IMG/VR virus record: IMGVR_UViG_3300029319_008466
Coordinates: 1 to 64,000 of that record
DNA length: 64,000 nt
Strand: one strand, 5' to 3'
Source: a virus
The notes under the pieces: model-generated
Databases searched by the model: none
What the model saw: the letters and a program-made list of their open reading frames with translations, nothing else
What the model was told of the DNA's origin: nothing
Shown: positions 7,589-29,833 of the stretch, one piece after another
How positions within the stretch are numbered: position 1 is the stretch's first letter
Layout: each line of letters opens with the position of its first letter
Translations under genes and position numbers: made by a program

Positions 7589-8320
7589 ATGAAAATTACA
7601 ATTATCATCCCTTGCTATAATGCAGAAGCCTGGATAGCCGAAAGCATTAAGTCTGCTCTCTTACAAACATATGAAAATACTGAAGTGATTTTTGTTGATA
7701 ATGAAAGTACAGATAATAGTCACGCAATTGCTTTAGAAATTCAAAAATTAAATCCAAAACTAAAAGTTTTTACAGCACCAAATTTATATAAATATTCTTG
7801 GGAAGAGCCTGTGGATAAAGCCCTGTCCGAAGCTACTGGTGAATATTTTACTATTTTGGGAGCAGACGATTATATTGACAAAGATTATATCAAGAACATA
7901 GTAAATGTAATTTCTGTCGCTCCAAACAAAATACAAATTATACAAACACCAATAAGGGGCGTTTTAAAAAATAAAGAAAAATACTTAGAAGAGATTAAGC
8001 ACACTTATAAAAGTTTAGAGGAATTTAAAACACTTTTGTTTAAAAGGTGCCCCGTTAATACACCAACTGTAGTATATAAAAAACAACTATATGATTCGGG
8101 TATAATTCGTTGGAATTCCAAAAAATATCTTGGTGCGGCAGACTATGATTTATATTTTAACATAGCCCATCATGACATTTTTATATATCCATATCCAAAA
8201 TGGTTAGGATATTTCTACAGATGGCATGACAAACAGGCTACTTGGGGAATGCACCAAGAAAATACTAACTATGATTCAATTATCCAAGCACACTGGAATG
8301 CTGTCTGGGACTGGGAATAA
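7589..8320 (+). CDS. Family 2 glycosyltransferase (GT-A fold)
   Basis: 243 residues. The classical GT2 start ITIIIPCYNAEAW (about 3-15) and VIFVDNESTDNS (about 33-44) build the nucleotide pocket, and ILGADDYI near residue 90 supplies the acidic metal-binding pair. The second half has the helical acceptor region, ending in WHDKQATWG. Inverting transferases of this family add one sugar from a UDP-, GDP- or dTDP-donor. No transmembrane helix is present, so it is soluble or peripheral. It is the fourth glycosyltransferase in a row. Confidence 0.9.
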   Translation: MKITIIIPCYNAEAWIAESIKSALLQTYENTEVIFVDNESTDNSHAIALEIQKLNPKLKVFTAPNLYKYSWEEPVDKALSEATGEYFTILGADDYIDKDYIKNIVNVISVAPNKIQIIQTPIRGVLKNKEKYLEEIKHTYKSLEEFKTLLFKRCPVNTPTVVYKKQLYDSGIIRWNSKKYLGAADYDLYFNIAHHDIFIYPYPKWLGYFYRWHDKQATWGMHQENTNYDSIIQAHWNAVWDWE

Positions 8321-8331
8321 AAGAGGTTAAT

Positions 8332-10125
8332 ATGGGTACTATTAGAGTAGCAGATTATATTTTTGATAGAATATCTGAGCTTGGTGCTAAACACATCTTT
8401 ATGTTGACAGGCGGCGGTGCAATGTTTTTAAACGATGCTGTCGCAAAGAATAAAAATTTATCTGCCATATGTGTTCATCACGAACAGGCCGCAGCCATGG
8501 GTGCTGTAGGTTACTCAAAATATGAAAACGATTATGGCGTAGTTTGTACGACTACTGGGTGTGGCTCTACAAACACAATAACCGGCTTATTGGAGGCGTG
8601 GCAGGATAATGTAAAGTGCATATTTATTTCGGGACAAGTAAACAAAGATCAGACTTCATATATGTCTGAAACACCCCTGCGTCAATTTGGTGTACAAGAA
8701 GCGGATATTGTAGAAATTGTAAAATCAATAACAAAATATGCAGTAATGATTACTGATCCTGAAATGGTTGCATATCATCTTGATAAAGCATTTCACCTAT
8801 GTTCTACTGGGCGTCCTGGTCCGGTTTGGATTGATGTGCCGTTGGACGTACAAGGTGCTTATGTTGATCCTCAAAAGCTCAAAAGATACATGCCTGCTGT
8901 AGAAAATAGCAAAGTTGATCTAAAAGATTTTTATACCTTGCTGGAAAATTCTAAAAGACCGATATTATTAGCTGGAAATGGTATAAAACTATCAGGCGCT
9001 ACCAGTGAATTTTTACAATTTGTTAAAAAACACAACATACCTGTTGTTTCAACCTATCTTGGAATAGATCTTTTATCACATCAAGACCCATTGATGATTG
9101 GGTGTGTGGGGGTAAAAGGAACAAGAGCGGGAAATTTTGCATTACAAAACTCCGATTTAGTAATAGCGATTGGTACCAGACTAAGTGTGCCAGTAATTGG
9201 ATATAAATATCATTTTTTTGCAAGAGAGGCTAAAATTGTAGTTGTAGATATTGATCCTGCCGAACATCAAAAAAAGACAATTAATATTAATACATTTATA
9301 CACGCTGATGCTAAAGACTTTTTTAATGCCTGTACGTTGGAAAATATAACAAAGCCTGTGCAGTCGCAAAAATGGGCTGATACTTGCTATAGTTGGAAAA
9401 ACAATTGGACAGTGTATCAAAAAGAGTATGAAAAAGACGACACAGGAATTAACCTATATTACTTTATTGAAAAACTGTCAGATTGTATGCATAGTGATTC
9501 CGTTGTAGTCTCTGATGCGGGATCAGCATATTACGTGACATCGCAAGGATTAAAAATAAAAGACAAACAAAAATATGTGACCTCTGGAGCCCAAGCCGAC
9601 ATGGGATTCACCATTCCAGCATCCGTGGGCGTTAGTTTTGCCAATAATAAAAAAGATGTTATTGGTATTACTGGAGACGGATCATTTCAGACTAACATAC
9701 AAGAATTGCAGACTATAGTGCATTATAATTTACCAATTAAATTATTTATATGGAACAATGATGGATATCTTTCAATTCAAAATACACAAAATAAATTTTT
9801 TGATGGAAGGCTTATAGGAGTCGATAAAGACTCGGGTGTATCGTTTCCCAAAATTGAAAAAATTGCAAAAGCCTATGGTATAAAATATTTTAAAGTAGAA
9901 AAAGCAAAAAATATTTCAAAAACAATATCAGAAGTGTTACAATGTACAGAACCAGTGATATGCGAAGTAATGTGTCAAAAACAACAACAAATACTTCCTA
10001 CATTGGCAAGCATGAAAACTGACGATGGTAAAATAATTTCTAAGCCTTTGGAAGACATGTATCCGTACATGGATAGAGAAGAGTTTTATGATAATATGAT
10101 TGTTAGTCCATTAGAAGAAAAATAA
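8332..10125 (+). CDS. Thiamine-diphosphate enzyme of the acetolactate synthase family
   Basis: A 597-residue three-domain TPP enzyme. The Pyr domain has TGGGAMFLN and the cofactor-activating Glu E51 in HHEQAAAMG. The C-terminal PP domain has GDG (448-450) and NN (475-476), the standard GDG-x25-NN metal/TPP motif. This branch is frequent in O-antigen clusters, and relatives such as YerE transfer an acetyl unit from pyruvate onto ketosugars. No other ilv gene is nearby, which argues against valine synthesis. It sits between a GT2 gene and panB. Substrate is inferred from context, not from active-site residues. Confidence 0.88.
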   Translation: MGTIRVADYIFDRISELGAKHIFMLTGGGAMFLNDAVAKNKNLSAICVHHEQAAAMGAVGYSKYENDYGVVCTTTGCGSTNTITGLLEAWQDNVKCIFISGQVNKDQTSYMSETPLRQFGVQEADIVEIVKSITKYAVMITDPEMVAYHLDKAFHLCSTGRPGPVWIDVPLDVQGAYVDPQKLKRYMPAVENSKVDLKDFYTLLENSKRPILLAGNGIKLSGATSEFLQFVKKHNIPVVSTYLGIDLLSHQDPLMIGCVGVKGTRAGNFALQNSDLVIAIGTRLSVPVIGYKYHFFAREAKIVVVDIDPAEHQKKTININTFIHADAKDFFNACTLENITKPVQSQKWADTCYSWKNNWTVYQKEYEKDDTGINLYYFIEKLSDCMHSDSVVVSDAGSAYYVTSQGLKIKDKQKYVTSGAQADMGFTIPASVGVSFANNKKDVIGITGDGSFQTNIQELQTIVHYNLPIKLFIWNNDGYLSIQNTQNKFFDGRLIGVDKDSGVSFPKIEKIAKAYGIKYFKVEKAKNISKTISEVLQCTEPVICEVMCQKQQQILPTLASMKTDDGKIISKPLEDMYPYMDREEFYDNMIVSPLEEK

Positions 10126-10135
10126 GGAGCTTACA

Positions 10136-11068
10136 ATGGCCGCAGATGACAGAAACAAAGTAACAATACTTAAACTACGAAGACAAAAAAAATTAGGAAA
10201 CAAGACAGTGCTTGTTACTGCTTATGATTATCCACAAGCAAGAATTGCTGATGGTGCAGACGTAGATTGCATTTTGGTTGGAGATTCATTGGGAATGACA
10301 ACCTTGGGATATAAAACAACTATTCCAGTAACCATGGATGATATGATAAGACACTCAGAAGCTGTTGCAAGAGGGGCAAAAAAGGCGTTTCTTATAGGAG
10401 ACATGCCATATATGTCTTATCAGGTATCGAACGAAGAGGCAGTGCATAATGCCGGTAGATTTGTTCGGGCGGGCATGGACTGCGTTAAAGTTGAGGGCGC
10501 AATGACAGAGAGAATTAGAGCAATTGCTGACTCTGGTATCATGGTGATGAGTCATTTGGGGCTAACTCCACATACTAGAGCCAAACTCGGCGGTTATCGC
10601 GTGCAGGGTAAAACAGCAAAGCAAGCCGAGATTATTTTAAAACAAGCACTCGACCTACAAGAAGCTGGCTGCACTTTTTTACTTTTAGAAGGTATGCCAA
10701 GAGAATCAGCAGAAATGATTGCTAACGAATTATCCATTCCAGTATATGGAATTGGAGCCGGTGATAAGGTGGACGGTCAATTGGTAATATTCCACGACCT
10801 TATGGGGTTGTTTTGGGAATTTAAATCCAAATTTGTTAAGCGATATTGCGAAGCGGGACAAATAATGCAAAATGCTCTTAGCAATTATACAGAAGAAGTT
10901 CGAAACGGACTGTTTCCTTCTGAAGAAAACTTTTATGCAATAAAAGAAGAAGAACTTGAAAGACTGCTGGGAGGAGGAAACTGGAAACATGATATAATTT
11001 ATGAAAACGATCAAGGTTTTCCAACGAATCATTCCGCCACTCCTAATACTGTTTTAAAAAAAAAGTAA
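10136..11068 (+). CDS. panB: Ketopantoate hydroxymethyltransferase (PanB) homologue
   Basis: 310 residues after a good AAGGAG. The TIM barrel keeps the residues expected for PanB: D50 in VGDSLGM, D89 in GDMPYMSY and E120 in KVEG for Mg2+, and E185 in LLLEGMP as catalytic Glu. PanB transfers a hydroxymethyl group from methylene-tetrahydrofolate to 2-ketoisovalerate in CoA synthesis. Intact motifs suggest activity, but no other pantothenate gene is present and all neighbours are sugar genes, so a modified role on a keto-sugar is possible. After the usual end (FPSEE, near 262) it carries a ~45-residue tail and stops within a possible frameshift site. Confidence 0.92.
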   Translation: MAADDRNKVTILKLRRQKKLGNKTVLVTAYDYPQARIADGADVDCILVGDSLGMTTLGYKTTIPVTMDDMIRHSEAVARGAKKAFLIGDMPYMSYQVSNEEAVHNAGRFVRAGMDCVKVEGAMTERIRAIADSGIMVMSHLGLTPHTRAKLGGYRVQGKTAKQAEIILKQALDLQEAGCTFLLLEGMPRESAEMIANELSIPVYGIGAGDKVDGQLVIFHDLMGLFWEFKSKFVKRYCEAGQIMQNALSNYTEEVRNGLFPSEENFYAIKEEELERLLGGGNWKHDIIYENDQGFPTNHSATPNTVLKKK

Positions 11069-11123: not shown

Positions 11124-11984
11124 ATGGACAATACAGTGAACAATATATTGATTACTGGAGGAAATGGCTTTTTAGCAAAAGAATTGACACTATATTTTTC
11201 CAATAATAGTGAGATAAATTTAATTTCTACAAACCGCAGCACTCTTGATATTGCAAACGCACAACAGGTTAATGACTTCTTTAATTTGAACAACATCGAT
11301 ATTGTGATACATACCGCAGTAAAAGGCGGCAAAAGAAATCAACAAGAGAGCATAGATGATTTTTTTTCTAATATATCCATGTTTAATAATTTGTTAAACT
11401 GTTCAAACAAATATAAGATGTTGTTTAATTTTGGTTCGGGCGCTGAGTTTGATAGATTTTTTAATATATCTCTTGCCAAAGAAGAATCGATTTTTAATCA
11501 CCGCCCAATTGACTATTATGGATTATCCAAAAATTTTATTAGTAGAAAAATTTCTGAACTAGATTCAAGATATTTTAATTTAAGGTTGTTTGGTTGTTTT
11601 GGTCATTTTGAAGAGCCTCAAAGACTCATAAGAGCTTCTTTTGATAATATACAAAATGGTAAACCAATTGCGATTAATCAAGATAAATTTATGGACTATT
11701 TTTATGCACAAGATGTTGGAAAAGTAATAGAACATATTATACAAAGCAATAAAGATGTCATACCTAGAGATATTAATTTATGTTACGAGAAAAAATATAA
11801 ACTAACAGATATATCAAACATGATTCTTGACTTGACTGGAAATGAAGAATCGGTTATAATAAAAAAAGAAACTCTTGGTAAACCATATACTGGTTGCGGC
11901 AAAAAACTTAAGGGGCTAAACATTGATTTACTTGGGATACATAAGGGTATTGAGATATGTCTGAAAAATTGGAAAAAATCCTAG
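11124..11984 (+). CDS. NAD-dependent sugar epimerase/reductase (extended SDR)
   Basis: 286 residues. The N-terminus has the GGNGFLA form of the SDR dinucleotide motif GxxGxxG (about 12-18). FGSGAEF provides the active-site Ser, and YYGLSK supplies Y-x-x-x-K. General order resembles GDP-fucose synthase or RmlD-type enzymes, which reduce or epimerise 4-keto sugars. The 3' end overlaps the RfbH-like gene by 28 bases. It could act on the keto-sugar from the dehydratases downstream; the precise substrate cannot be assigned. Confidence 0.75.
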   Translation: MDNTVNNILITGGNGFLAKELTLYFSNNSEINLISTNRSTLDIANAQQVNDFFNLNNIDIVIHTAVKGGKRNQQESIDDFFSNISMFNNLLNCSNKYKMLFNFGSGAEFDRFFNISLAKEESIFNHRPIDYYGLSKNFISRKISELDSRYFNLRLFGCFGHFEEPQRLIRASFDNIQNGKPIAINQDKFMDYFYAQDVGKVIEHIIQSNKDVIPRDINLCYEKKYKLTDISNMILDLTGNEESVIIKKETLGKPYTGCGKKLKGLNIDLLGIHKGIEICLKNWKKS

Positions 11985-13306
11985 ATTTAGTCAGCGAATA
12001 CATTGTAGATAAAAAGAAAAACGATAAATGGGACGCGGGCATTGATTGGCTATCTTATTCTGGTCCACATTATGATGAAAACGAGTATGTAGCCGCCGTC
12101 AAGAGTCTTTTAGATGAATGGCTTGTATTTGGTAAAGATTGCAGAGATTTTGAGATTGAGTTTCCAAAATTACTGGGGCTTCAAAGAGGTGTATTAACTA
12201 ACTCTGGTAGTTCGGCAAATCTATTGATGGTAAGTGCCCTCTCTTCGCCCACACCGGCTCTTAGAAAATACCACCTACCAAGAGGCAGTAAGTTTATAAC
12301 GCCGGTTGTATGCTTTCCTACAACGTTAAATCCTCTTTTGCAAAACGGATACGAGCCAGTTTTTGTCGATGTTACATTACCAGACTTAAATTTAGACTTA
12401 GATCAGGTAGAAAAACAACTTGAACAAGATCCCGATATCAGAGGTATAATTTTTGCACATGTGCTTGGAAACCCTCCTGACATGGATCGCTTAATGTCCT
12501 TGGTAGAAAAATATAATTTAATATTTTTGGAAGATTGCTGTGATGCCCTGGGTTCAACATACAAGGGTAAAAAACTTGGTTCTTTTGGGGTGATGTCTAC
12601 ATGCTCTTTTTACCCAGCGCATCATATGACAATGGCTGAAGGCGGTTTTATAGCAACAAACAGCTATGCTCTTTATAAAACACTGGCTAGTCTTCGAGAT
12701 TGGGGGCGCGGCTGTTATTGCAATGAAAAAAAGCCAGGCGATGTAACAACGGGTACCGCATGTGGAGACAGGTTTAAAAATTGGCTATGTGGCCGTAGTG
12801 ACGTTATTTATGATCATAGGTATGTTTATAATGAAGTGGGGTATAACCTCAAACCCATAGAGTTGCAAGGTGCTCTCGGCAAACAACAAATTAAAAAATT
12901 GCCAGAAATGGAAAATGCACGAAGACTTAATTTTCAAAAACTATATAATATCTTTAAGCCATATGAAAAATATTTCTGGTTAAATTCTGCAACTCCAGGT
13001 TCAGATCCTTGTTGGTTTGGATTTTTGTTTACCGTTAAACCAGACGCCCCTTTTAACAGGGAGCAATTTGTTAATTTTTTAGAAACTAACAAAATTCAGA
13101 CAAGACCATATTTTGCAGGCAACGTTTTATATCACCCGGCATACAAAAACTTGAGACAAGATGAAAATAACATAAGGGAAAAATATCCAATAGCAGATAT
13201 AGTAACTTTGGGCTCTGCATTTTTAGGTACATATATCGGATACACAGACGAGAAGATGAACTATATTAAGAAAAATGTAGATAAGTTTTTTCAGGAGTTA
13301 AAATGA
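11957..13306 (+). CDS. rfbH: CDP-4-keto-6-deoxyglucose-3-dehydrase-like (RfbH/E1 type)
   Basis: A 449-residue DegT/DnrJ/EryC1-family protein. In place of the PLP Lys it has His (H222 in FYPAHHMTMAEGG), the hallmark of the E1 3-dehydrases (AscC, DdhC, RfbH), which remove the C3 hydroxyl. It also carries E1-type iron-sulfur cysteines: C195-x57-C253-x-C255, then C269 and C278, with a longer last spacing than classical E1. E1 needs a ferredoxin-type reductase (E3), which was not found here. Family size is usual. Product: precursor of a 3,6-dideoxyhexose, most likely CDP-linked, though the nucleotide is inferred. Confidence 0.88.
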   Translation: MSEKLEKILDLVSEYIVDKKKNDKWDAGIDWLSYSGPHYDENEYVAAVKSLLDEWLVFGKDCRDFEIEFPKLLGLQRGVLTNSGSSANLLMVSALSSPTPALRKYHLPRGSKFITPVVCFPTTLNPLLQNGYEPVFVDVTLPDLNLDLDQVEKQLEQDPDIRGIIFAHVLGNPPDMDRLMSLVEKYNLIFLEDCCDALGSTYKGKKLGSFGVMSTCSFYPAHHMTMAEGGFIATNSYALYKTLASLRDWGRGCYCNEKKPGDVTTGTACGDRFKNWLCGRSDVIYDHRYVYNEVGYNLKPIELQGALGKQQIKKLPEMENARRLNFQKLYNIFKPYEKYFWLNSATPGSDPCWFGFLFTVKPDAPFNREQFVNFLETNKIQTRPYFAGNVLYHPAYKNLRQDENNIREKYPIADIVTLGSAFLGTYIGYTDEKMNYIKKNVDKFFQELK

Positions 13307-14253
13307 AAATTGTTTATATTACAGGCTGTCTTGGTTTTATAGGCTCCTATGTTACGAGAAAGTGTCTTCAAAAAGGCTGGATGGTCTATGGCGTAGATAA
13401 ATGCACATACGTTGCAAACACAGACTTGCTGCAAGAATTTAACCAATATCAAAATTTTACTTTTGAAAAAAAAGACATTAAAAAGCTTGCACATTTGTAT
13501 GATTGTGATTATATTATTAATATAGCCGCCGAGTCTCATGTTGGAAATAGCATTGTACAAAGCGATTCATTTATTGACAGCAATATTGTTGGGGTTAAAA
13601 ACCTATTGGACCTTTTAAGACACAAACCAAATAATGTTTCTAAAAGACCAATATTTCTACACTTCAGTACAGACGAAGTATATGGCGATATTGAAACCGG
13701 AGTACACACAGAAACGGATTTATTACAACCAAGCAATCCTTATTCGGCAGCCAAGGCAGCGGCGGATATGTTGGTAATGGCGTGGTCAAGAACATATAAT
13801 ATTGAGTATATTATTTTGCGACCAACAAATAACTATGGAATTGGACAATATCCTGAAAAACTTATACCGCTATCGGTAAAAAATCTTAATAGAAATAGAA
13901 AAATTAGACTTCATAATATGGGAACACCCATACGAAATTGGCTACATGCCGATGATACAGCCGAAGCAGTGATGACTATTATTGAATCGGGCGTAACAAA
14001 TCAAATATACAATATAGCTGGTGGGTTTGAACAAACAAATATAGAAACCGTTAAAAAGATTATTCACAGCTATTATTCGCCAGAATGTAATTGGGAACAA
14101 TATGTGGATTTGTCATATCATCGAGAAGGACAAGATGTTAGATATGCCCTTGATGATATTAAATTACGTGATTTGGGATGGCAGCCAAAAAAACAATTTG
14201 ACGAAGAACTTGATAATATAGTTGCGCATTACAAAAATAATTTTAAATGGTAA
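13303..14253 (+). CDS. Nucleotide-sugar 4,6-dehydratase (RmlB-like)
   Basis: A 316-residue extended SDR. Motifs in order: GCLGFIGS (8-15) for NAD, AAESHVGNS (75-83) typical of RmlB, STDEVYG (122-128) with the catalytic Asp-Glu pair D124/E125, and Y147-x-x-x-K151 in NPYSAAK. RPTNNYG and a C-terminal IRNWLHADD match dTDP-glucose 4,6-dehydratases. It converts an NDP-hexose to the 4-keto-6-deoxy form, which the adjoining RfbH-like enzyme could use. dTDP or CDP cannot be decided; no matching hexose-1-phosphate nucleotidyltransferase is visible. Overlaps the previous gene by four bases. Confidence 0.88.
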   Translation: MKIVYITGCLGFIGSYVTRKCLQKGWMVYGVDKCTYVANTDLLQEFNQYQNFTFEKKDIKKLAHLYDCDYIINIAAESHVGNSIVQSDSFIDSNIVGVKNLLDLLRHKPNNVSKRPIFLHFSTDEVYGDIETGVHTETDLLQPSNPYSAAKAAADMLVMAWSRTYNIEYIILRPTNNYGIGQYPEKLIPLSVKNLNRNRKIRLHNMGTPIRNWLHADDTAEAVMTIIESGVTNQIYNIAGGFEQTNIETVKKIIHSYYSPECNWEQYVDLSYHREGQDVRYALDDIKLRDLGWQPKKQFDEELDNIVAHYKNNFKW

Positions 14254-14260
14254 TAGAAAA

Positions 14261-15196
14261 ATGAGGTTAAAATACAGTGACATTATTGGAAAGCATAAAA
14301 ACATACCATGTGCAATCACACTTCACGGTCCAAGTTTAGATCCTTACAGAGATCGAATACAAGACTTACAAAGGCAAAATAAATTAATAAGATTTGACGT
14401 TAATGAATGGTATGATTATTTTGAAGAGAAACCCAACTATTGGGTTGTATCAAATACAGAATTTACAATTGATGCCTCAATAAGAAGAAATCGTATATGG
14501 GCTGAGAGAAAATACGAGCACAATGTGTTCAACAAATATAATGTACCTCTTTTATATAATGCAACAGCAGACTTGACAGATTTAGACTTTGTTGACAAGA
14601 ATTTACAATGCGATTACTTGCCTTATGACACCAAGCATTTTAAGGGACATAGGTGTGTTGAGATCTTAAAAAATTTTAAAACATATTATGAGCAAAATAG
14701 AAATTTAAATTTTAAATATTATGGAAACAACGAACAATTGTGGCAGCCGCCTAATATAAAGGGATTTGCACCATGGAAGCAAAAATTACACGGACGCATC
14801 GGCGGTGCCTGGAATGTATCGGGAAAGTGTTGCGCATTTATTGATCAGAGCACGTTGCAGGAAGAATTACAAAAACATTCTGGATATGAACAACATATGG
14901 GGCCGGGGCAGACTGTTGGGTTGTTTGCGGGCATGTTTGCAATATTAATGGGATGTAATCCGATATATATTGTCGGTCTTGATTTAGACTGTGAAGCAGG
15001 CTTTGCCGCAGGCAAGCAAACACTTGGTGTTTACAACGAGGGGCATGTTGGGCATTGGAAGGTAATTTATAGAGATTTTCTTCTTGATGACATGCGTATA
15101 TTAAAAGAAAGTGCAGAAAAACTTGGCATTGAGATTATCAATTTAAATAAACAATCTTGGCATGATGTATTTCAAAAAGGCGAATTAAATTTATAA
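14261..15196 (+). CDS. GT42/DUF115-like protein, candidate nonulosonic-acid transferase
   Basis: 311 residues from ATG 14261, seven bases after the previous stop; an earlier in-frame TTG lies inside that gene. ITLHGPSLD near the N-terminus matches the G-x-G-P-S-L motif opening sialyltransferase family GT42 and the related DUF115/Maf proteins. Near residue 220, GQTVGLFAGMFAILMG then YIVGLDLD matches their conserved helix-strand block. Both groups transfer sialic-acid-like sugars from CMP donors, and NeuB/NeuA follow just past tRNA-Asn. The function is inferred from this resemblance; specificity is unknown. No membrane segment is evident. Confidence 0.6.
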   Translation: MRLKYSDIIGKHKNIPCAITLHGPSLDPYRDRIQDLQRQNKLIRFDVNEWYDYFEEKPNYWVVSNTEFTIDASIRRNRIWAERKYEHNVFNKYNVPLLYNATADLTDLDFVDKNLQCDYLPYDTKHFKGHRCVEILKNFKTYYEQNRNLNFKYYGNNEQLWQPPNIKGFAPWKQKLHGRIGGAWNVSGKCCAFIDQSTLQEELQKHSGYEQHMGPGQTVGLFAGMFAILMGCNPIYIVGLDLDCEAGFAAGKQTLGVYNEGHVGHWKVIYRDFLLDDMRILKESAEKLGIEIINLNKQSWHDVFQKGELNL

Positions 15197-15222: not shown

Positions 15223-15299
15223 TGGGGTGAGGTTGTCCAGGTATCAACGCCTGACTGTTAATCAGGAGACTGCTGGTTCGAGTCCAGCCACCCCAGCCA
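15223..15299 (+). tRNA. tRNA-Asn (anticodon GTT)
   Basis: A 77-base cloverleaf. Acceptor TGGGGTG/CACCCCA has the U1-A72 pair usual for bacterial tRNA-Asn. The D stem is GTTG/CAAC, the anticodon stem CCTGA/TCAGG holds CTGTTAA (GTT), and the T arm is CTGG/CCAG around TTCGAGT. Discriminator G and encoded CCA are present. It lies inside the sugar island, far from the other two tRNAs. Confidence 0.97.
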
Positions 15300-15328
15300 A
15301 AATCACTAACAATATAAAAGGAAAAAAA

Positions 15329-16159
15329 ATGAAAAAAACTTTTGTTATCGCAGAAATCGGAATTAATCACAATGGTGATTTAAATTTGGCAAAAAAACTA
15401 ATTGATGGAGCCGTTACAGCGGGCTGTGACATGGTGAAGTTTCAAAAAAGAACAGTTGATTTGGTATATACTAAACAAGAACTTGATAAGACAAGAGAAA
15501 GTCCCTGGGGAACAACCAATCGTGAACAAAAAATGGGATTAGAGTTTGGTGAAAAAGAATATGATCAAATTGACAGATATTGTAAGAAAAAAGGAATTTA
15601 TTGGACTGCATCTGCATGGGATGTGCCAAGCCAATTATTTTTAAGAAAATATGATTTAAAATACAACAAAGTTGCATCTCCGATGCTAACACATGATGAT
15701 TTGTTACAAACGATTGCGGAAGAAAAAAAGTATACTTTTATTTCAACAGGTATGAGTACGGTTGAGCAAATCAGAAAAGCTGTTAACATTTTTAAGAAAG
15801 CAGGTTGCCCTTTTGAGCTAATGCACTGTAATAGTACCTATCCCCTTAATCCAGAAGATGCAAATTTGCGTGTAATAAACACATTGCGTAGTGATTTTGG
15901 TTGTGATGTGGGGTATAGCGGACACGAAGTAGGTGTTATCGTTAGTTGTGCAGCGGTCGCCCTGGGTGCAACTTCCATAGAAAGACACATTACTTTAGAT
16001 CGAGCTATGTATGGCTCGGATCAATCTGCTTCGTTAGAACTGGGAGGGTTAAATAAATTGGTGGCATATATTAGAGATATTGAAACATCTTTGGGATCCC
16101 CCGTAAAAAAATTGCATGCCTCGGAGGTACCTGCTATGAAAAAGCTTAGGAAATATTAA
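15329..16159 (+). CDS. neuB: N-acetylneuraminate synthase family protein (NeuB), SAF domain absent
   Basis: 276 residues from ATG 15329, behind AAAAGGAAA; the open frame upstream runs through tRNA-Asn and is not the start. The NeuB barrel is complete: AEIGINHNGD, MVKFQ, STGMST, HCNSTYPL, GYSGHE and ERHITLD. These enzymes condense phosphoenolpyruvate with an N-acylmannosamine-type sugar to give nonulosonic acids. Usual members are about 340 residues with a C-terminal SAF (antifreeze-like) domain; this one ends right after the barrel. The substrate may therefore differ from ManNAc. neuA follows with a one-base overlap. Confidence 0.88.
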   Translation: MKKTFVIAEIGINHNGDLNLAKKLIDGAVTAGCDMVKFQKRTVDLVYTKQELDKTRESPWGTTNREQKMGLEFGEKEYDQIDRYCKKKGIYWTASAWDVPSQLFLRKYDLKYNKVASPMLTHDDLLQTIAEEKKYTFISTGMSTVEQIRKAVNIFKKAGCPFELMHCNSTYPLNPEDANLRVINTLRSDFGCDVGYSGHEVGVIVSCAAVALGATSIERHITLDRAMYGSDQSASLELGGLNKLVAYIRDIETSLGSPVKKLHASEVPAMKKLRKY

Positions 16160-16878
16160 TGACACTGACCGCACTAATACCGGCACGAGGTGGTAGCAAG
16201 GGCGTACCAAGAAAAAATATTCATAATTTGGCTGGATATCCCCTTATTGCATATTCTATAATCGCGTGTAAGGCTTCTTCAAAAATAAGTAGAGTGGTAG
16301 TATCGACTGATGACGAAGAGATAGCTGATGTAGCAAGACAGTATGGCGCAGAAGTTCCGTTTATGAGACCTAAAGAATTTGCGGGCGATAAGTCAACTGA
16401 CTTAGAGGTTATTAAGCATTTCTATTCCATGGAAGGACCACAAGATTTAGCTTTTGTTAGACCAACAACTCCGATTAGGGAACCTGTTGTCATGGATGGT
16501 ATTGTTGATAAATTCATTAAAAATTATTCAAACATTACTGGACTAAGATCCGCACATGAGCTTTCAGAATCGCCTTATAAGTTTTTTAAAATTGTAGATG
16601 GAATATTCACTGGGTTTTTTGATCATTTTGATGGAATAAAAGATTATACAAATTTACCCAGACAAATGTTTCCAAAAGCGTATCATCCAAACGGATATCT
16701 TGATATTTTAAAAAAAGATACAGTTTTAGCAGGTAGTGATTTTGGTAGCAAAATTTTACCCGCAATTACTGAATTTACAGTTGAAGTTGATGATAAATAT
16801 CATTTTGAATTACTGGAAAGCCAAATTGCAATGGGCAAAGACAAAGTATATCAGGAGCTAAAAAATGGTGTATACTAA
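16159..16878 (+). CDS. neuA: Acylneuraminate cytidylyltransferase family (NeuA)
   Basis: 239 residues. The signature LIPARGGSKGVPRKN (6-20) binds CTP, and the RPTTPIR-like stretch (VRPTTPIREP) and VEVDDKYHFE near the C-terminus follow the family order. It joins CMP from CTP to a nonulosonic-type acid. Start overlaps the neuB stop by one base, and the aminotransferase ATG lies 14 bases inside its 3' end. The product is a CMP-activated acid sugar of unknown structure. Confidence 0.9.
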   Translation: MTLTALIPARGGSKGVPRKNIHNLAGYPLIAYSIIACKASSKISRVVVSTDDEEIADVARQYGAEVPFMRPKEFAGDKSTDLEVIKHFYSMEGPQDLAFVRPTTPIREPVVMDGIVDKFIKNYSNITGLRSAHELSESPYKFFKIVDGIFTGFFDHFDGIKDYTNLPRQMFPKAYHPNGYLDILKKDTVLAGSDFGSKILPAITEFTVEVDDKYHFELLESQIAMGKDKVYQELKNGVY

Positions 16879-18133
16879 GAACCGCTTTATAAAAGAAGAT
16901 TTTGAACTAAACTATGGTGACTTAACAGAAATTAGGCATAAGTATGAGCCATTGGCCCTCGGAGATCAGGTGCCGGTTGTGTGGCACAAAGCAAAAGATT
17001 TCAATGTTTATGATGAGAGTGGGAACAAGTGGATCGATATGACTGCTGGGATTTTTGCAGCCAACGCTGGACACTCGAACGAAGAAATAAAGAAAGCTAT
17101 AAAAAAACAATTGGATGACGATTTGCTTTTTGCATATCAATATGAGACACGTATAAGGTCGAAATTTGTTACCAAGTTTATTGATACAACTCCAGATTAT
17201 CTTAACAAGGTCGTGTTGTTAAATACAGGCTCTGAAGCAACAGATGCTTGCTATAAAATAATTAAACTTTGGGCAAAGAAAAATAATAAAAAATATATTG
17301 TTTGCTTTAATGGAAGTTATCACGGTAGAGTTCTGGGCTCGGCGCTGATGTGTGGTAGTAAGGACGCTACACAATGGTCGAATGTTGTAGACGATGATAT
17401 TGTGTTCATAGATTTTCCTTATGATGAAGATTCGCGCTTTGATCCATCGCTTCTACCACCCAGAGAACAAATAGCTGCTTTTTTCTTAGAAACGTATCAG
17501 GGGTGGGGAGCTTGCATGTATCCCCCTCAATATATAAAGGATTTATATACTTTTGCTAGAGAAAGCGGTGCTTTAGTCTGTTTTGATGAGGTTCAAGCAG
17601 GATTTTATAGAATGGGCAAGCTTTTTGGATTTATGACTTATGGTGATTTTATTGAACCAGATATGATTACTCTTGGTAAGGGTATCTCCTCTTCTCTTCC
17701 AATGTCTGCGGTGTTGGGCAGGGCGGAAATCATAGATGTAGACTTAGATGCTAATTTAAGCGGCACACATGCTGGAAATGCCCTTGGTTCTGCTGCATGT
17801 TTGGCTAATTTAGAGGTGTTAACTAGTAAAAAGTTTCAAACAGAACTTGAGAAAAAGATAGTCTATTTTGAAAAGAGGTGCGAAGAACTCTTAAGACTTA
17901 ATTCTGTAGTAAAAGTTAACTATCGAGGAATGGTCGCTGGCATAATCTTAGATAATACAAAAGTTGCGAATGATGCAGTCAATAGATGCATTCTAAATGG
18001 AGTGCTTCCTGTTTGCACATTTAGAGAGTCCATAAAGCTCGGGCCTCCTTTGACTATCAGCATTGAAGCAATAGGAGAAGCGTTTGATGTTATCGAAAAT
18101 GCAATAATTGAGGCATCAAATGTCAAAAAATAA
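16865..18133 (+). CDS. Class III PLP aminotransferase
   Basis: 422 residues. LLNTGSEATDA (about 117-127) and the catalytic Lys K272 in ITLGKGISSSLP are in their expected places, with FDEVQAGFYRMG before them for the cofactor Asp. Class III enzymes (acetylornithine, GABA and glutamate-semialdehyde types) transfer an amino group to a terminal aldehyde or ketone. Directly after NeuB/NeuA, it may aminate a keto- or aldehydo-sugar or build an amino-acid substituent. No membrane segment; length typical. Confidence 0.88.
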   Translation: MVYTKNRFIKEDFELNYGDLTEIRHKYEPLALGDQVPVVWHKAKDFNVYDESGNKWIDMTAGIFAANAGHSNEEIKKAIKKQLDDDLLFAYQYETRIRSKFVTKFIDTTPDYLNKVVLLNTGSEATDACYKIIKLWAKKNNKKYIVCFNGSYHGRVLGSALMCGSKDATQWSNVVDDDIVFIDFPYDEDSRFDPSLLPPREQIAAFFLETYQGWGACMYPPQYIKDLYTFARESGALVCFDEVQAGFYRMGKLFGFMTYGDFIEPDMITLGKGISSSLPMSAVLGRAEIIDVDLDANLSGTHAGNALGSAACLANLEVLTSKKFQTELEKKIVYFEKRCEELLRLNSVVKVNYRGMVAGIILDNTKVANDAVNRCILNGVLPVCTFRESIKLGPPLTISIEAIGEAFDVIENAIIEASNVKK

Positions 18134-23986: not shown

Positions 23987-24389
23987 TAGAAAATATTTAC
24001 CAACACTATCAGAACTGGTGGATAGGCTTTCAATTGTACAGTTAAAAGAAGTTTTTATTACAGAACACAAGGAAGAATATGCACAAGAGATATCTGATAT
24101 ATGTCACGATATTGAAATAATATTGGAAAATTCGGATAGTATTACTGCCGATACGGTGCGTGCAATTGTGGTTTTATCACAAATGAACTTGCATATTTGG
24201 CATAATGAATCAAACTATCGAAAGGGAATTAAAGATGGCAACAACCTTGAGCTTACCCATGGGTTAAATGGAATTCGCAATACGGCAAAAAACAAGATAC
24301 AAGAAATTGTTGGTGGTCGTAAAGATTACAAAATAGATTGTCTAGCGGCTGAGTTTAAGGATTGGGAAGTTAGTTGGAAAAATGATTAA
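23979..24389 (+). CDS. Hypothetical helical protein, 136 residues
   Basis: Mostly alpha-helical, without signal or membrane segment. It begins LPTLSELVDRLSIVQLKEVF and contains MNLHIWHNESNYRKG and GLNGIRNTAKNKI. Small proteins with a similar ELVDRLSI start occur beside LPS-type genes in marine phages; their function is unknown to me. It overlaps both neighbours by eight bases. Possibly a DUF4254-like or regulatory protein, but this is not supported by a clear motif. Confidence 0.6.
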   Translation: MSSRKYLPTLSELVDRLSIVQLKEVFITEHKEEYAQEISDICHDIEIILENSDSITADTVRAIVVLSQMNLHIWHNESNYRKGIKDGNNLELTHGLNGIRNTAKNKIQEIVGGRKDYKIDCLAAEFKDWEVSWKND

Positions 24390-24855
24390 GGATGTGAAGT
24401 ATTACGAGCCCGATGCTTATACAGATTATAGAGGTGATCTGTGGACTCTGTGGCAATCAGGAGATTGTGATTTAAGCTTTAATCATGATAAGGTTTCCAC
24501 TTCTCGTAAGAATGTGCTTCGCGGAATTCATGGCGATTTTAAATCTTGGAAATTAGTAACTTGTTTACATGGAGAACTGTACTTTGTAATGGTTGACAAT
24601 CGCAAAAATTCTGAAACCTATAAAATGTGGAATTGGACAATACTAAGCCCCCACAACAAGAAACAAGTTCTTTTACCACCTGGCGTCGGCAATGGTTTTT
24701 TGGTTTTAAGTGATCATTCTGTTTTTCATTATAAGTGGGCATATGAAGGAAAATACCCAGATGTACAAGATCAGTTTACTATTAAATGGAATGATTCGTC
24801 CATAAATATTGATTGGCCAATTACAAACCCTATTTTACAACCAAGAGATAAATAA
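24382..24855 (+). CDS. dTDP-4-keto-6-deoxyhexose 3,5-epimerase-like (RmlC family)
   Basis: 157 residues. The cupin core matches RmlC: YTDYRGDLWTLW, then the catalytic-His segment VLRGIHGD, then KLVTCLHGE, LLPPGVGNGFLVLSD and HYKWAYEGKY. RmlC-type enzymes epimerise C3 and C5 of NDP-4-keto-6-deoxy sugars made by 4,6-dehydratases. It is slightly shorter than the usual ~180 residues. Its stop shares one base with the next ATG. Natural substrate may be the product of the RmlB-like enzyme at 13303 or of GMD. Confidence 0.82.
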   Translation: MIKDVKYYEPDAYTDYRGDLWTLWQSGDCDLSFNHDKVSTSRKNVLRGIHGDFKSWKLVTCLHGELYFVMVDNRKNSETYKMWNWTILSPHNKKQVLLPPGVGNGFLVLSDHSVFHYKWAYEGKYPDVQDQFTIKWNDSSINIDWPITNPILQPRDK

Positions 24856-25487
24856 TGAATGTAAAAATACCACCTCATTTGCGGAAAGTGAGGGATGTAA
24901 GTTTAACTCCGCAAGAACTAATTGATTTTGAAGCAAAGGTCAGAGACTATTATGAAGCTGGTAAAATTAAAGGACCAATTCATTTAGCTAAAAACAATGA
25001 AAATGAACTAATACATATTTTTCAATATATCAGCAAAGATGATTGGGTTTTTGTGCCATGGAGAAATCATTATCAGGCGCTTTTGCACGGAGTGAATCCA
25101 GACAAACTATTAAATTGGATCATAGAGGGCAGGAGTATGGGCACTAATAATGTAAATCCAAATTTTTATGCATCATCTATTGTGGGAGGTATTATTCCTA
25201 TCGCTGTGGGTGCCGCTGTAGCCCTTAAGAGAAAAGAAACGACTCGTCGTGTGTGGTGTTTTGTGGGAGACATGACAATGGAAACTGGCGTGTTTCATGA
25301 GGCATATAAATATGTTAAGAACTTTGATCTACCATTACAGTGGGTTATAGAGGATAATAATATGAGCGTTCACACTCCTACCGAAATGGCGTGGAATAAT
25401 AAACAAAGAGTTCCTGAAGATGTAATCTATTATGAGTATGAAATGGGCTATCCTCATCACGGAACTGGCAAGTGGGTGAATTTTTAA
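24855..25487 (+). CDS. TPP enzyme, PP-domain subunit (E1-alpha/transketolase-N-like), short
   Basis: 210 residues. It has the TPP/Mg motif GD (G138-D139 in FVGDMTMETG) and the closing NN of VIEDNNMS, i.e. GD-x(~28)-NN. The N-terminal part has KGPIHLAKNNE and WVFVPWRNHYQAL, as in 2-oxoacid dehydrogenase E1-alpha subunits, though those are usually over 300 residues. The partner Pyr domain is the next gene. No E2 or E3 component was found, so it is probably not a dehydrogenase complex; a transketolase-like or decarboxylating step on a sugar or keto acid is inferred. Confidence 0.82.
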   Translation: MNVKIPPHLRKVRDVSLTPQELIDFEAKVRDYYEAGKIKGPIHLAKNNENELIHIFQYISKDDWVFVPWRNHYQALLHGVNPDKLLNWIIEGRSMGTNNVNPNFYASSIVGGIIPIAVGAAVALKRKETTRRVWCFVGDMTMETGVFHEAYKYVKNFDLPLQWVIEDNNMSVHTPTEMAWNNKQRVPEDVIYYEYEMGYPHHGTGKWVNF

Positions 25488-25488
25488 A

Positions 25489-26025
25489 ATGCGCTATAAA
25501 GAAGAAATTATTAGAGCAATGAATTGGCTTGCAGAGAAAGAAGATACCGTATTTTTGGGACAAGCTTGCAAGGTCAGTGGCCACGCTATATCAAGTACTA
25601 TTACAGACGTTCCACAAGAAAAACGTATTGAGCTTCCTGTATTTGAAGAAACACAACTCGGAATATCTACAGGCATGGCTTTAGAGGGTTATGTGCCCAT
25701 CACCATGTACCCCAGATTTGATTTTTTTATTTTAGCAATGAATCAGTTGGTCAATCATTTGGATAAAATGAGAGACATGTCAAAAAATGACATGAAACCA
25801 AAAGTAATTATCCGTGTCGCTGTTGGGGCAAAAACACCAATTGATGCCGGACCACAACACACTCAAAACCATACTGATGCGTTGAGGTTAATGCTTACTG
25901 ATGTCAATGTTGTCGAACTTACAGAGCCAGAGCAAGTATTTCCATCTTTCAAAGAGGCATATGAAAGAGAAGACGGGCGAGCAACCTTGTTGGTAGAACA
26001 TGGAGAGTTTTATGTCTCAAAATAA
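25489..26025 (+). CDS. TPP enzyme, Pyr-domain subunit (E1-beta/transketolase-C-like), short
   Basis: 178 residues, two bases after the alpha-like gene. IELPVFEETQLGISTGMALEG contains the Glu that activates the TPP aminopyrimidine, followed by PITMYPRFDFFILAMNQL and GPQHTQNHTDAL, as in E1-beta. Normal beta subunits are about 320 residues; this one stops after the Pyr domain and lacks the C-terminal transketolase domain. With the upstream gene it forms a minimal two-gene TPP enzyme. Its last bases overlap the ColD-like gene. Confidence 0.82.
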   Translation: MRYKEEIIRAMNWLAEKEDTVFLGQACKVSGHAISSTITDVPQEKRIELPVFEETQLGISTGMALEGYVPITMYPRFDFFILAMNQLVNHLDKMRDMSKNDMKPKVIIRVAVGAKTPIDAGPQHTQNHTDALRLMLTDVNVVELTEPEQVFPSFKEAYEREDGRATLLVEHGEFYVSK

Positions 26026-27193
26026 ATTTAACTGGTCGTTAATTAATGACAACATCACCATTGAAGATAAGCTGGCAATGGTTTCGTTTATATCTGCACC
26101 AAATGTGAGATTTACAAATGGAGCCAAGGTCAGAGAATTCGAATCAGCATGGTCGGAATGGGAGGGTGTTAAAAATACCACATTTGTAAACTCTGGAGCC
26201 AGCGCCAATTATATTATGATGTCTGTCGTTAAAGAGTTGAAAGGCGCAGGCGAGGTTGTTGTTCCCCCTCTCGGCTGGGTTTCTGATATCTCTCCTGTTG
26301 TTAATTTAGGAATGACCCCTGTGTTTGTTGACATTGACCCTAAAACACTTTGCATCAGTTATGAAAACATAGTACAAGCAGTTACTGAAGAAACAGTGGC
26401 TATTGTTATTGTGCATGCTTTGGGGTTTAATGGTATTGATCAACGAATTATTGATTTTGCAAAAGAAAGACAAATCATACTTATTGAGGATTGTTGTGAA
26501 GCCCACGGCGCGACATATAATGGACAAAGAGTAGGTAGCTTTGGAGATATGTCTAATTTTTCGTTTTATTTTGGACATCATATTACTACAATTGAGGGCG
26601 GCGTTGTTTGTACAAACAACGACACGCTTCATGAGTATGTGAGACTTTTTCGTTCGCATGGCATGACGAGAGAAACATCAGCACAATTTCAAAAAGAATA
26701 TCAAGAAAAGTATCCTAATTTAAATCCGTTATTCACTTTTGCCGTACCGGGATATAATATGAGAAATGCAGAAATTAATGCAGTTTTAGGTCTGCAACAA
26801 ATGAAAAGACTTGATTACAATATCCAAAGAAGAATTGATAATATGAAATTATGGAATTCGAGTTTGAATTCTGCAATTTATTATACTGATTTTATTTTGG
26901 AAGGTAATAGCAACTTTGCATTGCCGCTTGTTTTGAGGCAACCTAATAAAGAAAGATTTAATAATATTTGCTCCATTTTGGAACAAGAGAGGGTAGAATA
27001 TCGAACGGGCACAGCGGGTGGTGGTAATCAAACGTTGCAACCTTATTTGGTGGAAGGTAAGTACGATTATAGAGTAGTCGGCGATCTAGATTATGTAAAC
27101 CACATCCACCACTATTCTTTATATATTGGGAACCACCCAGAATTAAAAGATAAACAAATTATTGAATTATGTAATAGGATTAACAATGTTTAA
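26012..27193 (+). CDS. Sugar 3-dehydratase of the ColD type (His in place of PLP Lys)
   Basis: 393 residues from ATG 26012, preceded by GGAGAG; an ATG at 26000 lacks such a site. DegT/DnrJ/EryC1 fold with NSGASAN (60-66), IEDCCEAHGA and FYFGHHITTIEGG, where H189 occupies the PLP-Lys position. This fits ColD, the GDP-4-keto-6-deoxymannose 3-dehydratase of colitose synthesis, which uses His and glutamate without an Fe-S cluster. The E1-type C-x-C cysteine pair is absent, unlike the RfbH-like protein at 11957. GMD at 29826 would give its substrate. Confidence 0.83.
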   Translation: MSQNKFNWSLINDNITIEDKLAMVSFISAPNVRFTNGAKVREFESAWSEWEGVKNTTFVNSGASANYIMMSVVKELKGAGEVVVPPLGWVSDISPVVNLGMTPVFVDIDPKTLCISYENIVQAVTEETVAIVIVHALGFNGIDQRIIDFAKERQIILIEDCCEAHGATYNGQRVGSFGDMSNFSFYFGHHITTIEGGVVCTNNDTLHEYVRLFRSHGMTRETSAQFQKEYQEKYPNLNPLFTFAVPGYNMRNAEINAVLGLQQMKRLDYNIQRRIDNMKLWNSSLNSAIYYTDFILEGNSNFALPLVLRQPNKERFNNICSILEQERVEYRTGTAGGGNQTLQPYLVEGKYDYRVVGDLDYVNHIHHYSLYIGNHPELKDKQIIELCNRINNV

Positions 27194-28145
27194 AAATAAA
27201 AGAGTGCTTGTAACCGGCGGCCACGGCATGATTGGTCGTGAGTTGGTGAAATTGTTGGTTGACCTTGGCGCACTTGTAACAGTCGCAGATATTAGTGAAA
27301 ACACAAATCTTGAAGGAGTTGAATATAAACAAGTCGATTTATGCTTTTTTGACCAATGTATGGAAGTTTGTAAGGACCAGGAGATTGTTTTTAATTTAGC
27401 GGGCATTAAAGGTTCTCCAAAAATGTGCGCAGAACAACCCGCAGATTTTATGGTACCCATGCTTCAATTCAACACAAACATGATGGAAGCCGCCATGAAG
27501 CACGAAGTCGAGTGGTATTTATATACAAGCTCAGTCGGTGTATACAAGCCCGCAGAAGTCTTAAAAGAAGACGATGTTTGGTCCACGTTCCCATCGCCAA
27601 ATGACAGATTTGCCGGATGGGCAAAAAGAATTGGAGAATTGCAAGCTGAAGCATATGCGATCCAACATGGTAAAAGCAATATATCAATTGTTAGACCTGC
27701 AAATGTGTATGGAAATAATGACAACTTTAATCCAGCAAACGCCATGGTTATTCCTTCGTTAATTAGAAAGGCTCATGAAAATGATGTTCTTGAGGTATGG
27801 GGTGATGGAACGGCAATCCGTGATTTTATTCATGCCAAAGATGTTGCACTGGGAATGCTCCACGTTGTTGAAAACGGAATTACAAAGCCCGTTAACTTAG
27901 GTAGTGGAGATGGCGTTGCGATTAAAACTATTGCTGAAATTGTTGCAAAGAGATTTGGTAAGGAAATAAAGTGGCTAACTGACAAGCCCACAGGAGACGC
28001 CAGAAGAGTTTTTGATATGAGCAGGGCGTATGATTGTGGATTTAAACCAAGTGTTAGTGTTGAGAATGGCATTAATGATACAATTGATTGGTTTTTAGAA
28101 AATAAGGAAATAATCGACAAGAGATATAATGCCTTTACAAAATGA
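27186..28145 (+). CDS. Extended SDR sugar epimerase/reductase with altered active site
   Basis: 319 residues from ATG 27186, overlapping the previous stop by eight bases. GGHGMIGREL (11-20) binds NAD(P), YTSSVGVY (113-120) has the active-site Ser, and RPANVYG follows. The Tyr of Y-x-x-x-K is missing: the aligned segment is RFAGWAK, with A143 four before K147. Either a nearby residue replaces the Tyr or the chemistry does not need it. General type is UDP-glucose epimerase/GDP-fucose synthase-like; the substrate is unknown. Confidence 0.8.
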   Translation: MFKNKRVLVTGGHGMIGRELVKLLVDLGALVTVADISENTNLEGVEYKQVDLCFFDQCMEVCKDQEIVFNLAGIKGSPKMCAEQPADFMVPMLQFNTNMMEAAMKHEVEWYLYTSSVGVYKPAEVLKEDDVWSTFPSPNDRFAGWAKRIGELQAEAYAIQHGKSNISIVRPANVYGNNDNFNPANAMVIPSLIRKAHENDVLEVWGDGTAIRDFIHAKDVALGMLHVVENGITKPVNLGSGDGVAIKTIAEIVAKRFGKEIKWLTDKPTGDARRVFDMSRAYDCGFKPSVSVENGINDTIDWFLENKEIIDKRYNAFTK

Positions 28146-28869
28146 TAAAGTTTTAATCACCGGCACTAAAAGCGGACTCGGTAAGTATTTGTCAAAGCAG
28201 TTTACTGAGTGTTTTTGCCTCAACAGGGAAAACAAACAAGATGTTATAGATAAGGCGCTACAAGTACAATTAATTGTTCATTGTGCCTTTAACACAAAGC
28301 AAGACGCCAACACATATCAATTGTTAAAAGATAATATATTTTTAACAGAACAGTTGTGCAATTTAAGTTTAAGCCGCTTCTTTGACAACAAGTTTGTATA
28401 TATTTCTTCCGTTGATGTGCATAATAAGAAAAAAACAAATTATAACACCATGAAGCTTTATGCAGAGTCTATTGTTAAAAATCATTGTAATAATTATTTG
28501 ATCCTAAGATGTCCCGCACTGTTGGGTGCCGACATGAGAAAAAACAATTTTCTCAAAATTGTTGAAGATAAAAATCCTAAACTATCTTTGACAAAAGAAT
28601 CAAGCTTTAATTTTATAACACACCATGATATACTTAAAATCATAAGATATGCTTATAATAACAACATAAGCGGCACCTATGATGTTGTTTCGCATGGAGA
28701 TATTACTTTAGAACAAGTTGCCTCGATGTGTAAAAAATCTTGTTCATTTGGTGATTACACATACAATACACCAAACGTCACTAATCAAAAACTTCTTGCT
28801 GATTTTGATTTTATGAATAAAAGTTCTGTGCAAGTGGTACAAAAATTTATAAAGGAACACTATGGCTGA
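28129..28869 (+). CDS. SDR-type NAD(P)-dependent sugar reductase
   Basis: 246 residues. VLITGTKSGLGKYL is the dinucleotide motif, YISSVDVH has the Ser, and NYNTMKLYAE supplies Y-x-x-x-K. RCPALLG is the RmlD/epimerase 'RPxxVYG'-equivalent. It is shorter than the extended SDRs around it (about 320 residues) and close to RmlD-like reductases in layout. It overlaps neighbours by 17 and 8 bases. Probably a ketoreductase acting on a sugar nucleotide. Confidence 0.72.
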   Translation: MPLQNDKVLITGTKSGLGKYLSKQFTECFCLNRENKQDVIDKALQVQLIVHCAFNTKQDANTYQLLKDNIFLTEQLCNLSLSRFFDNKFVYISSVDVHNKKKTNYNTMKLYAESIVKNHCNNYLILRCPALLGADMRKNNFLKIVEDKNPKLSLTKESSFNFITHHDILKIIRYAYNNNISGTYDVVSHGDITLEQVASMCKKSCSFGDYTYNTPNVTNQKLLADFDFMNKSSVQVVQKFIKEHYG

Positions 28870-29833
28870 AAAACAAAAAATGTTAATCTGCGGTGCTACA
28901 GGGTTTATAGGGAGAAATTTACTTGAAAGGTATTGCTATGACGAAAAATATTCAGTTCGAGCAGTTTATAACATAAAACCAGCGCTGGAACAATACAATG
29001 TAGAGTGGGTTCATGCTGATTTAAACAATATTAAAGATGTAAGGCGCGTTTTGCAGGATATCGATATTGTGTTACAGTTTGCGGCAACAACATCTGGGGC
29101 GAACGATATTATTAATCGTCCGCACATACATGTTACAGATAATGCTGTCATGAATAGTTTGATTTTAAGAGAATGTTACGAACAGCATATAAAACACGTT
29201 GTTTTTCCAAGCTGTACGGTCATGTACCAACCAGCAGATTATGCTCAAAAAGAATCTGATTGGAATGCACAGGATGAAATATTTCACACCTATTTTGGAG
29301 TTGGAAATACAAAAGTATATATTGAGAAAATGTGTGATTTCTTTTCTAGATTAGGCAGGACTAAACACACAGTGATGAGACATTCAAACATGTATGGACC
29401 TTATGATAAATATGACTTGGAGCGCTCACATGTTTTTGGCGCAACAGTAACAAAGGTTATGACAAACACAAGTGGCATTCTTAATGTTTGGGGCACCGGG
29501 GAAGGCGCAAGAGACCTGTTGCATGTAGATGATTTAGTTAACTTTATTGATTGCGCTATAGAGAAGCAAGAATCTAATTATGAACTCTTTAATGTTGGGC
29601 TGGGCAAAGCTACAAAAATAATAGATTTAATCAAAAGCATTATTCATCATTCAGGAAAAAACCTGCAAATAGAATATGATTTATCTAAACCTACAATACC
29701 CACTTCTTTGTTTCTTGATTGTACAAAGGCAAAAGAACTTCTCGGGTGGGAGCCACAAATCTCTATAGATAAGGGAATTGTTAGAACATTACAGTGGTAT
29801 AAAAATAACATTATGGATAAAACAAATGAGTAA
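28862..29833 (+). CDS. Extended SDR, GDP-fucose-synthase-like
   Basis: 323 residues. CGATGFIG (10-17) binds NAD(P), FPSCTVMYQP (115-124) resembles the GFS/ColC active-site segment SSCIYP, and MYGPYDKYDLERSHV matches the GDP-fucose synthase stretch after the active site. The Y-x-x-x-K motif is not canonical: the Lys of GVGNTK (K151) has Val at the Tyr position, with Tyr at 144. ColC and GFS reduce and epimerise GDP-4-keto sugars, so this is the likely partner of the ColD-like and GMD enzymes. Confident family, uncertain substrate. Confidence 0.78.
   Translation: MAEKQKMLICGATGFIGRNLLERYCYDEKYSVRAVYNIKPALEQYNVEWVHADLNNIKDVRRVLQDIDIVLQFAATTSGANDIINRPHIHVTDNAVMNSLILRECYEQHIKHVVFPSCTVMYQPADYAQKESDWNAQDEIFHTYFGVGNTKVYIEKMCDFFSRLGRTKHTVMRHSNMYGPYDKYDLERSHVFGATVTKVMTNTSGILNVWGTGEGARDLLHVDDLVNFIDCAIEKQESNYELFNVGLGKATKIIDLIKSIIHHSGKNLQIEYDLSKPTIPTSLFLDCTKAKELLGWEPQISIDKGIVRTLQWYKNNIMDKTNE

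Follow-up and report, generated by a model that had tools for sequence, protein, structure and literature searches.

A PanB homologue paired with a YerE-like ThDP enzyme in phages: a probable module for synthesis of a C-branched 3,6-dideoxyhexose

Introduction

PanB is a textbook vitamin-B5 enzyme. What, then, is a gene for a PanB homologue doing on a marine phage genome, directly behind a gene annotated as acetolactate-synthase-like and amid a long series of sugar genes? The window analysed here, a stretch of 64,000 nucleotides, comprises positions 1 to 64,000 of IMG/VR record IMGVR_UViG_3300029319_008466, whose 82,990 bp include baseplate and PhoH genes that mark its phage origin. The initial annotation placed the pair in a sugar pathway, with the PanB homologue adding a second branch to the sugar ring, and named CoA supply as the alternative. 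We argue that the two genes probably constitute one module of a phage-borne pathway to a C-branched 3,6-dideoxyhexose, with PanB acting outside pantothenate and CoA synthesis.

The gene cassette

The genes for the ThDP-dependent carboligase (8332-10125; 597 aa; PF02775, PF00205 and PF02776) and for the PanB homologue (10136-11068; 310 aa; PF02548, TIGR00222) are both intact and lie on the same (+) strand, separated by 10 nt. Three further genes follow on that strand. The first (11124-11984; PF01370) encodes an SDR of the epimerase/reductase family, which is found 3' of the PanB or TPP gene in many related loci and which, by analogy with YerF, may reduce the keto group of the new branch. The second (11957-13306) encodes an RfbH/E1-type NDP-4-keto-6-deoxyhexose 3-dehydratase (NF011936 RfbH, 446.8 bits; cut-off 423) with the motif HHMTMAEGG at the PLP site, where His replaces the usual Lys, and with several Cys residues retained; no reductase or electron-donor partner for it was identified. 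The third (13303-14253) encodes an NDP-hexose 4,6-dehydratase of the dTDP-glucose type, which scores below the TIGR01181 equivalog cut-off (293.9 bits; cut-off 365) and to which genes in many PanB-TPP loci are 61-76% identical. On the upstream side, also on the + strand, an ORF called at 7589-8320 encodes a family-2-like glycosyltransferase; it is separated from the TPP gene by 11 nt and is likely to belong to the same operon, and 12 of the loci retrieved carry a homologue of it. The genetic grouping of the ThDP gene with the deoxy-keto-sugar genes at 11957-14253 recurs in many relatives, and the placement of the pair in a sugar pathway is borne out.

The 4,6-dehydratase, 3-dehydratase and SDR thus surround the pair as a cassette of the yersiniose type. 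The yersiniose A cassette of Yersinia has the same makeup: 4,6-dehydratase, RfbH-type 3-dehydratase, ThDP enzyme (YerE) and reductase. YerE uses pyruvate directly, and we know of no PanB in the yersiniose A pathway.

Other features of the neighbourhood may be recorded here. Within the sugar cluster, a tRNA-Asn(gtt) gene (15223-15299) separates a NeuB-like gene from an MptE/Maf-like ORF (14261-15196). A block at 15326-18133, which encodes a short NeuB-like protein (277 aa), a PseF-like cytidylyltransferase and a class III aminotransferase, is kept in several related phages and is likely to serve a separate nonulosonate-type sugar. A second sugar cluster (24382-31990), its gene names read from the sequence, holds a split transketolase-like pair (24855-25487 and 25489-26025), four SDRs, a PfkB-like kinase, a cytidylyltransferase and a DegT-family enzyme with the motif GHHITTIEGG, again with His for the usual PLP Lys.

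The ThDP enzyme is JanthE-like

The window's ThDP enzyme has three Pfam TPP domains, together with the E51, GDG and NN that had been noted at the outset. Its best match in the PDB, and its closest solved relative (37-38% identity), is 8rph, the JanthE enzyme of Janthinobacterium sp. HH01, whose natural substrates are unknown (445 bits; the next match scores 252); JanthE is also the best PDB match for all three of the PanB-paired ThDP lineages. The predicted structure (mean pLDDT 83) points the same way: the top six Foldseek matches are JanthE chains, at TM 0.88-0.89 versus ~0.82 for AHAS. The enzyme misses the AHAS equivalog TIGR00118 (389.7, below 538.35). The Arg that handles the acceptor carboxylate in AHAS (R377 in Arabidopsis) is replaced by Pro, as it is in JanthE (P293), and W574 (Arabidopsis) is replaced in both enzymes by Thr; JanthE differs from the window enzyme in having CDG for GDG. 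In our tree all PanB-paired ThDP enzymes cluster with JanthE, away from AHAS (support 98), and the AHAS small subunit (PF10369) was found in none of 30 phage records, all of them fragments (the window's own and 29 related ones). JanthE is a YerE-like enzyme that couples 2-oxo acids to ketones (PMC12188165). Judged by its residues and modelled fold, the window enzyme is JanthE/YerE-like and no acetolactate synthase, a class assignment made by comparison with JanthE; the YerE-type label of the initial annotation stands. By analogy, it may use a ketone as acceptor and form a tertiary alcohol.

The acceptor need not be the same throughout the group. The AHAS acceptor Arg is absent throughout ThDP lineage A, lineages B and C mostly retain an AHAS-type Arg, and lineage C loci mostly lack an RfbH-type gene, so that in these lineages the acceptor may differ.

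Two relatives deserve separate mention. TGA occurs in frame four times in the JanthE-like gene of one phage contig (L217, 5989-7803), and at least two of these codons fall on positions of Trp conserved in relatives; this phage probably reads TGA as Trp. In an Omnitrophota MAG (G033, locus L241) the ThDP enzyme of an aminotransferase-ThDP-SDR-RfbH cluster shares 51% identity with the phage enzyme, and the cluster is possibly a cellular relative of the phage cassette.

The PanB homologue is a separate paralogue

The window's PanB scores far above the cut-offs of its families (PF02548, 333.7 bits, cut-off 28.7; TIGR00222, 286.7, cut-off 207.55). Thirty phage PanBs share without exception D50, S51, D89, K118, E120, H140 and E185, a set that includes the residues listed as intact in the initial annotation (D50, D89, E120, E185). 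In E. coli numbering, the Mg, substrate and catalytic residues D45, S46, D84, K112, E114, H136 and E181 are found in every sequence of all the groups compared. The first structural matches of the predicted structure (mean pLDDT 74.5) are solved PanB structures, and fold, Mg and substrate ligands and catalytic Glu are common to the phage protein and ketopantoate hydroxymethyltransferase (TIGR00222; 1m3u, 1o66).

What sets the phage PanB apart from the pantothenate enzyme, besides its ThDP partner and its lack of panC/panE context, is its place in the trees and two substitutions. ThDP-adjacent PanBs have Ile at E. coli position 214 (V214I), where 42 of 45 canonical PanBs have Val, and mostly Tyr at position 200 (I200Y). 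Shared substitutions at these positions, with catalytic residues and 2-oxo-acid ligands kept, suggest an altered side-chain pocket; since position 214 is, we take it, close to the side chain of the substrate, a change of substrate appears likely. That the protein still scores as a true PanB, with the family signature entirely retained, means that 2-ketoisovalerate could nevertheless be its substrate. PanB would then convert host 2-ketoisovalerate and the ThDP enzyme would use the resulting ketopantoate to make a gem-dimethyl branch. The exchange of Val for Ile at position 214 speaks against this scheme, which we regard as quite improbable.

The phage PanBs form one clade (support 99-100). A second phage clade, two ThDP-adjacent PanBs from Omnitrophota, one Spirochaetes PanB and two PanBs of Gemmatimonadota join them, and this wider group stands apart from the other sampled PanBs, among which are the E. 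coli enzyme and the further PanB that these same Omnitrophota genomes encode (support 95, in quick trees); a single clade is neither rejected nor demonstrated by the one-clade test (p-AU 0.308). The nesting within host panB that would have spoken for a housekeeping role was not seen in these trees. The wider group is not purely TPP-linked: two Gemmatimonadota PanBs near the TPP-adjacent ones (L110, L114) have no TPP neighbour, and a PanB from a Spirochaetes MAG (L085) clusters with the second phage clade although none of the surrounding ORFs inspected is a TPP gene. As judged from its sequence, the phage PanB is a specialised paralogue, separate from ordinary PanBs.

PanB and ThDP genes are paired across genomes

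When loci were fetched from IMG/VR by PanB alone, a ThDP enzyme adjoined PanB in 79 of 80, and the sole exception is truncated by a contig edge. Further scans, one based on divergent PanBs and one on a profile of ordinary bacterial PanBs, brought the viral-collection set to 98 distinct PanBs: 93 are ThDP-adjacent and three more share their locus with a ThDP gene, while the remaining two lie at a contig edge and in a bacterial panB-panC-panD operon (the latter read from sequence starts). The pairing is well beyond chance. The PanBs are 71-90% identical, their ThDP partners are 33-64% identical to that of the window, and both gene orders occur; little variation in PanB beside partners so divergent is what one expects if one PanB product serves several acceptors.

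In the reverse direction, PanB is present in 56 of 80 JanthE-like loci, several of the others being truncated by contig ends. (In the TPP search of viral contigs a single-protein pattern gave no match and an alignment query did.) More distant ThDP enzymes (38-46%) are mostly without PanB, yet RfbH-type and 4,6-dehydratase or SDR genes are retained beside them.

The pair is also cellular. Two Omnitrophota genomes contain it together with a separate canonical PanB, thus two PanBs each, against one each in three other Omnitrophota genomes checked. Upstream of one of these pairs are glucose-1-phosphate cytidylyltransferase-like and O-antigen ABC-transporter-like genes (identified by eye from sequence starts), which fits a surface polysaccharide. 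Of the best 80 matches listed in a scan of bacterial PanBs, none has a gene related to the window's TPP gene beside it, and the matches in plasmid searches were annotated panB or acetolactate synthase genes. The panB of Microcystis phage MaAM05 (MW495066; L162) was excluded: it lies near the record end with panC, suf genes and pxpA, and looks bacterial.

A role in CoA supply is disfavoured

Might the phage simply be raising its host's pantothenate? PanB would do so directly, the ThDP enzyme would increase flux through the valine pathway, and host enzymes would supply the steps between. The names under which the genes are annotated suggest as much, and PanB could act alone with host enzymes. 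That PanB almost always stands beside a YerE-like enzyme in a sugar cluster is hard to reconcile with this scheme, as is a ThDP enzyme with neither the AHAS acceptor residues nor the AHAS small subunit. IlvC, IlvD, PanC and the PanE C-terminal domain are each found in 0 of the same 30 phage records, in keeping with the absence of ilvC, ilvD and pantothenate genes remarked on initially. The phage PanB thus has neither a panC/panE link nor a place in the housekeeping panB clade, and the bacteria that have the pair retain a second PanB. We consider participation of the phage PanB in pantothenate or CoA synthesis unlikely, and the full CoA-supply scheme highly improbable. A marine survey has read an abundant viral 'pantoate transferase' as a boost to CoA (PMC8940887); that reading is undercut by the finding that nearly every PanB from the IMG/VR scans adjoins a sugar-branching ThDP enzyme.

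The gene beside the ThDP enzyme where PanB is absent

In phage loci without PanB the slot beside the ThDP gene is filled by an HpcH/HpaI aldolase (6 loci), an HMGL-like aldolase (1) or a class I/II aminotransferase (2); in 7 more (L189, L221-L225, L236) it holds a set encoding a DJ-1/PfpI protein, a cupin and a small HAD-like protein. The immediate neighbours in 49 JanthE-like loci from the two bacterial phyla surveyed, Omnitrophota and Spirochaetota, given as raw counts without a statistical background, include HMGL-like aldolases (14), HpcH/HpaI aldolases (7), aminotransferases (4), DJ-1 proteins (4), NeuB-like proteins (3), PanB (2) and an acetylating acetaldehyde dehydrogenase (1). One HMGL-like slot protein clears the 4-hydroxy-2-oxovalerate aldolase equivalog cut-off (337.8; cut-off 286). 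In established enzymology most of these slot-filling enzymes yield 2-oxo acids or their precursors, and enzymes of these types are few per genome. The DJ-1/cupin/HAD module is not an obvious 2-oxo-acid maker; three of the four Omnitrophota DJ-1 loci (L257, L258, L261, L262) have an altronate/galactarate-type dehydratase across the ThDP gene.

That other 2-oxo-acid makers often occupy the PanB slot suggests that PanB itself most likely forms a hydroxymethylated 2-oxo acid. Taken with the retention of PanB's 2-oxo-acid and Mg residues, it makes one longer hydroxylated branch more likely than the second ring branch proposed in the initial annotation. The same final branch would arise if the order were reversed, the ThDP enzyme placing a pyruvate-derived acetyl unit on C4 and PanB then hydroxymethylating the methyl group of that branch. 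This order, with PanB working on the sugar, comes closest to the idea of the initial annotation. The conserved pairing is compatible with either sequence of action, and a tertiary hydroxyketone could conceivably chelate Mg in the manner of a 2-oxo acid. The reversed order is nonetheless unlikely: the ligands D50, S51, D89, K118 and E120 are invariant, the alternative slot genes yield free 2-oxo acids, and very different ThDP enzymes partner one PanB clade.

A possible pathway

In the pathway that we favour, PanB would act first on the donor and the ThDP enzyme afterwards on the sugar. The gene identities, catalytic residues, pairing and slot exchange are read from sequence; from these we infer substrates, step order and product. 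The 4,6-dehydratase (13303-14253) would make an NDP-4-keto-6-deoxyhexose, from which the RfbH-type enzyme (11957-13306) would strip the 3-OH with the help of an electron donor. PanB (10136-11068) would use 5,10-methylene-THF to hydroxymethylate a 2-oxo acid, and the product would be a 4-hydroxy-2-oxo acid; the simplest guess is pyruvate, giving 4-hydroxy-2-oxobutanoate. The ThDP enzyme (8332-10125) would decarboxylate this donor and place the acyl unit on C4 of the keto-sugar, creating a tertiary alcohol, and the SDR (11124-11984) would reduce the ketone remaining in the branch. The predicted product is a 4-C-(hydroxypropanoyl/dihydroxypropyl)-3,6-dideoxyhexose; we know of no such sugar from the literature.

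Donors of this class have precedent. ErwE of Pectobacterium atrosepticum, a YerE-like enzyme, transfers a hydroxylated 2-oxo-acid-derived unit to CDP-4-keto-3,6-dideoxyglucose in erwiniose synthesis, much as proposed here, and it prefers 4-hydroxy-2-oxo acids, 4-hydroxy-2-oxobutanoate among them (PMC12247030). PanB chemistry yields the same class of compound, which fits a donor-making role. JanthE accepts 4-hydroxy-2-oxovalerate (PMC12188165). The passages of the erwiniose report consulted mention no PanB (PMC12247030), whereas in the window PanB occupies the likely donor-making slot, and does so on a phage. A search that combined PanB with 4-hydroxy-2-oxobutanoate brought up no paper in the literature collection consulted.

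Implications

A wider proposition can be put forward tentatively, and we would not be surprised to see it fail: that in phages and some bacteria a dedicated PanB channels a folate one-carbon unit (with pyruvate, as 4-hydroxy-2-oxobutanoate) into a C4-branched deoxysugar, and that YerE-type pathways in general place next to the ThDP gene a donor-making gene that can be exchanged. If that is true, the neighbouring gene would predict the branch. For PanB it would mean a new role that can be tested, and for this group of phages the data speak against the notion that a virus-borne 'pantoate transferase' raises host pantothenate and CoA.
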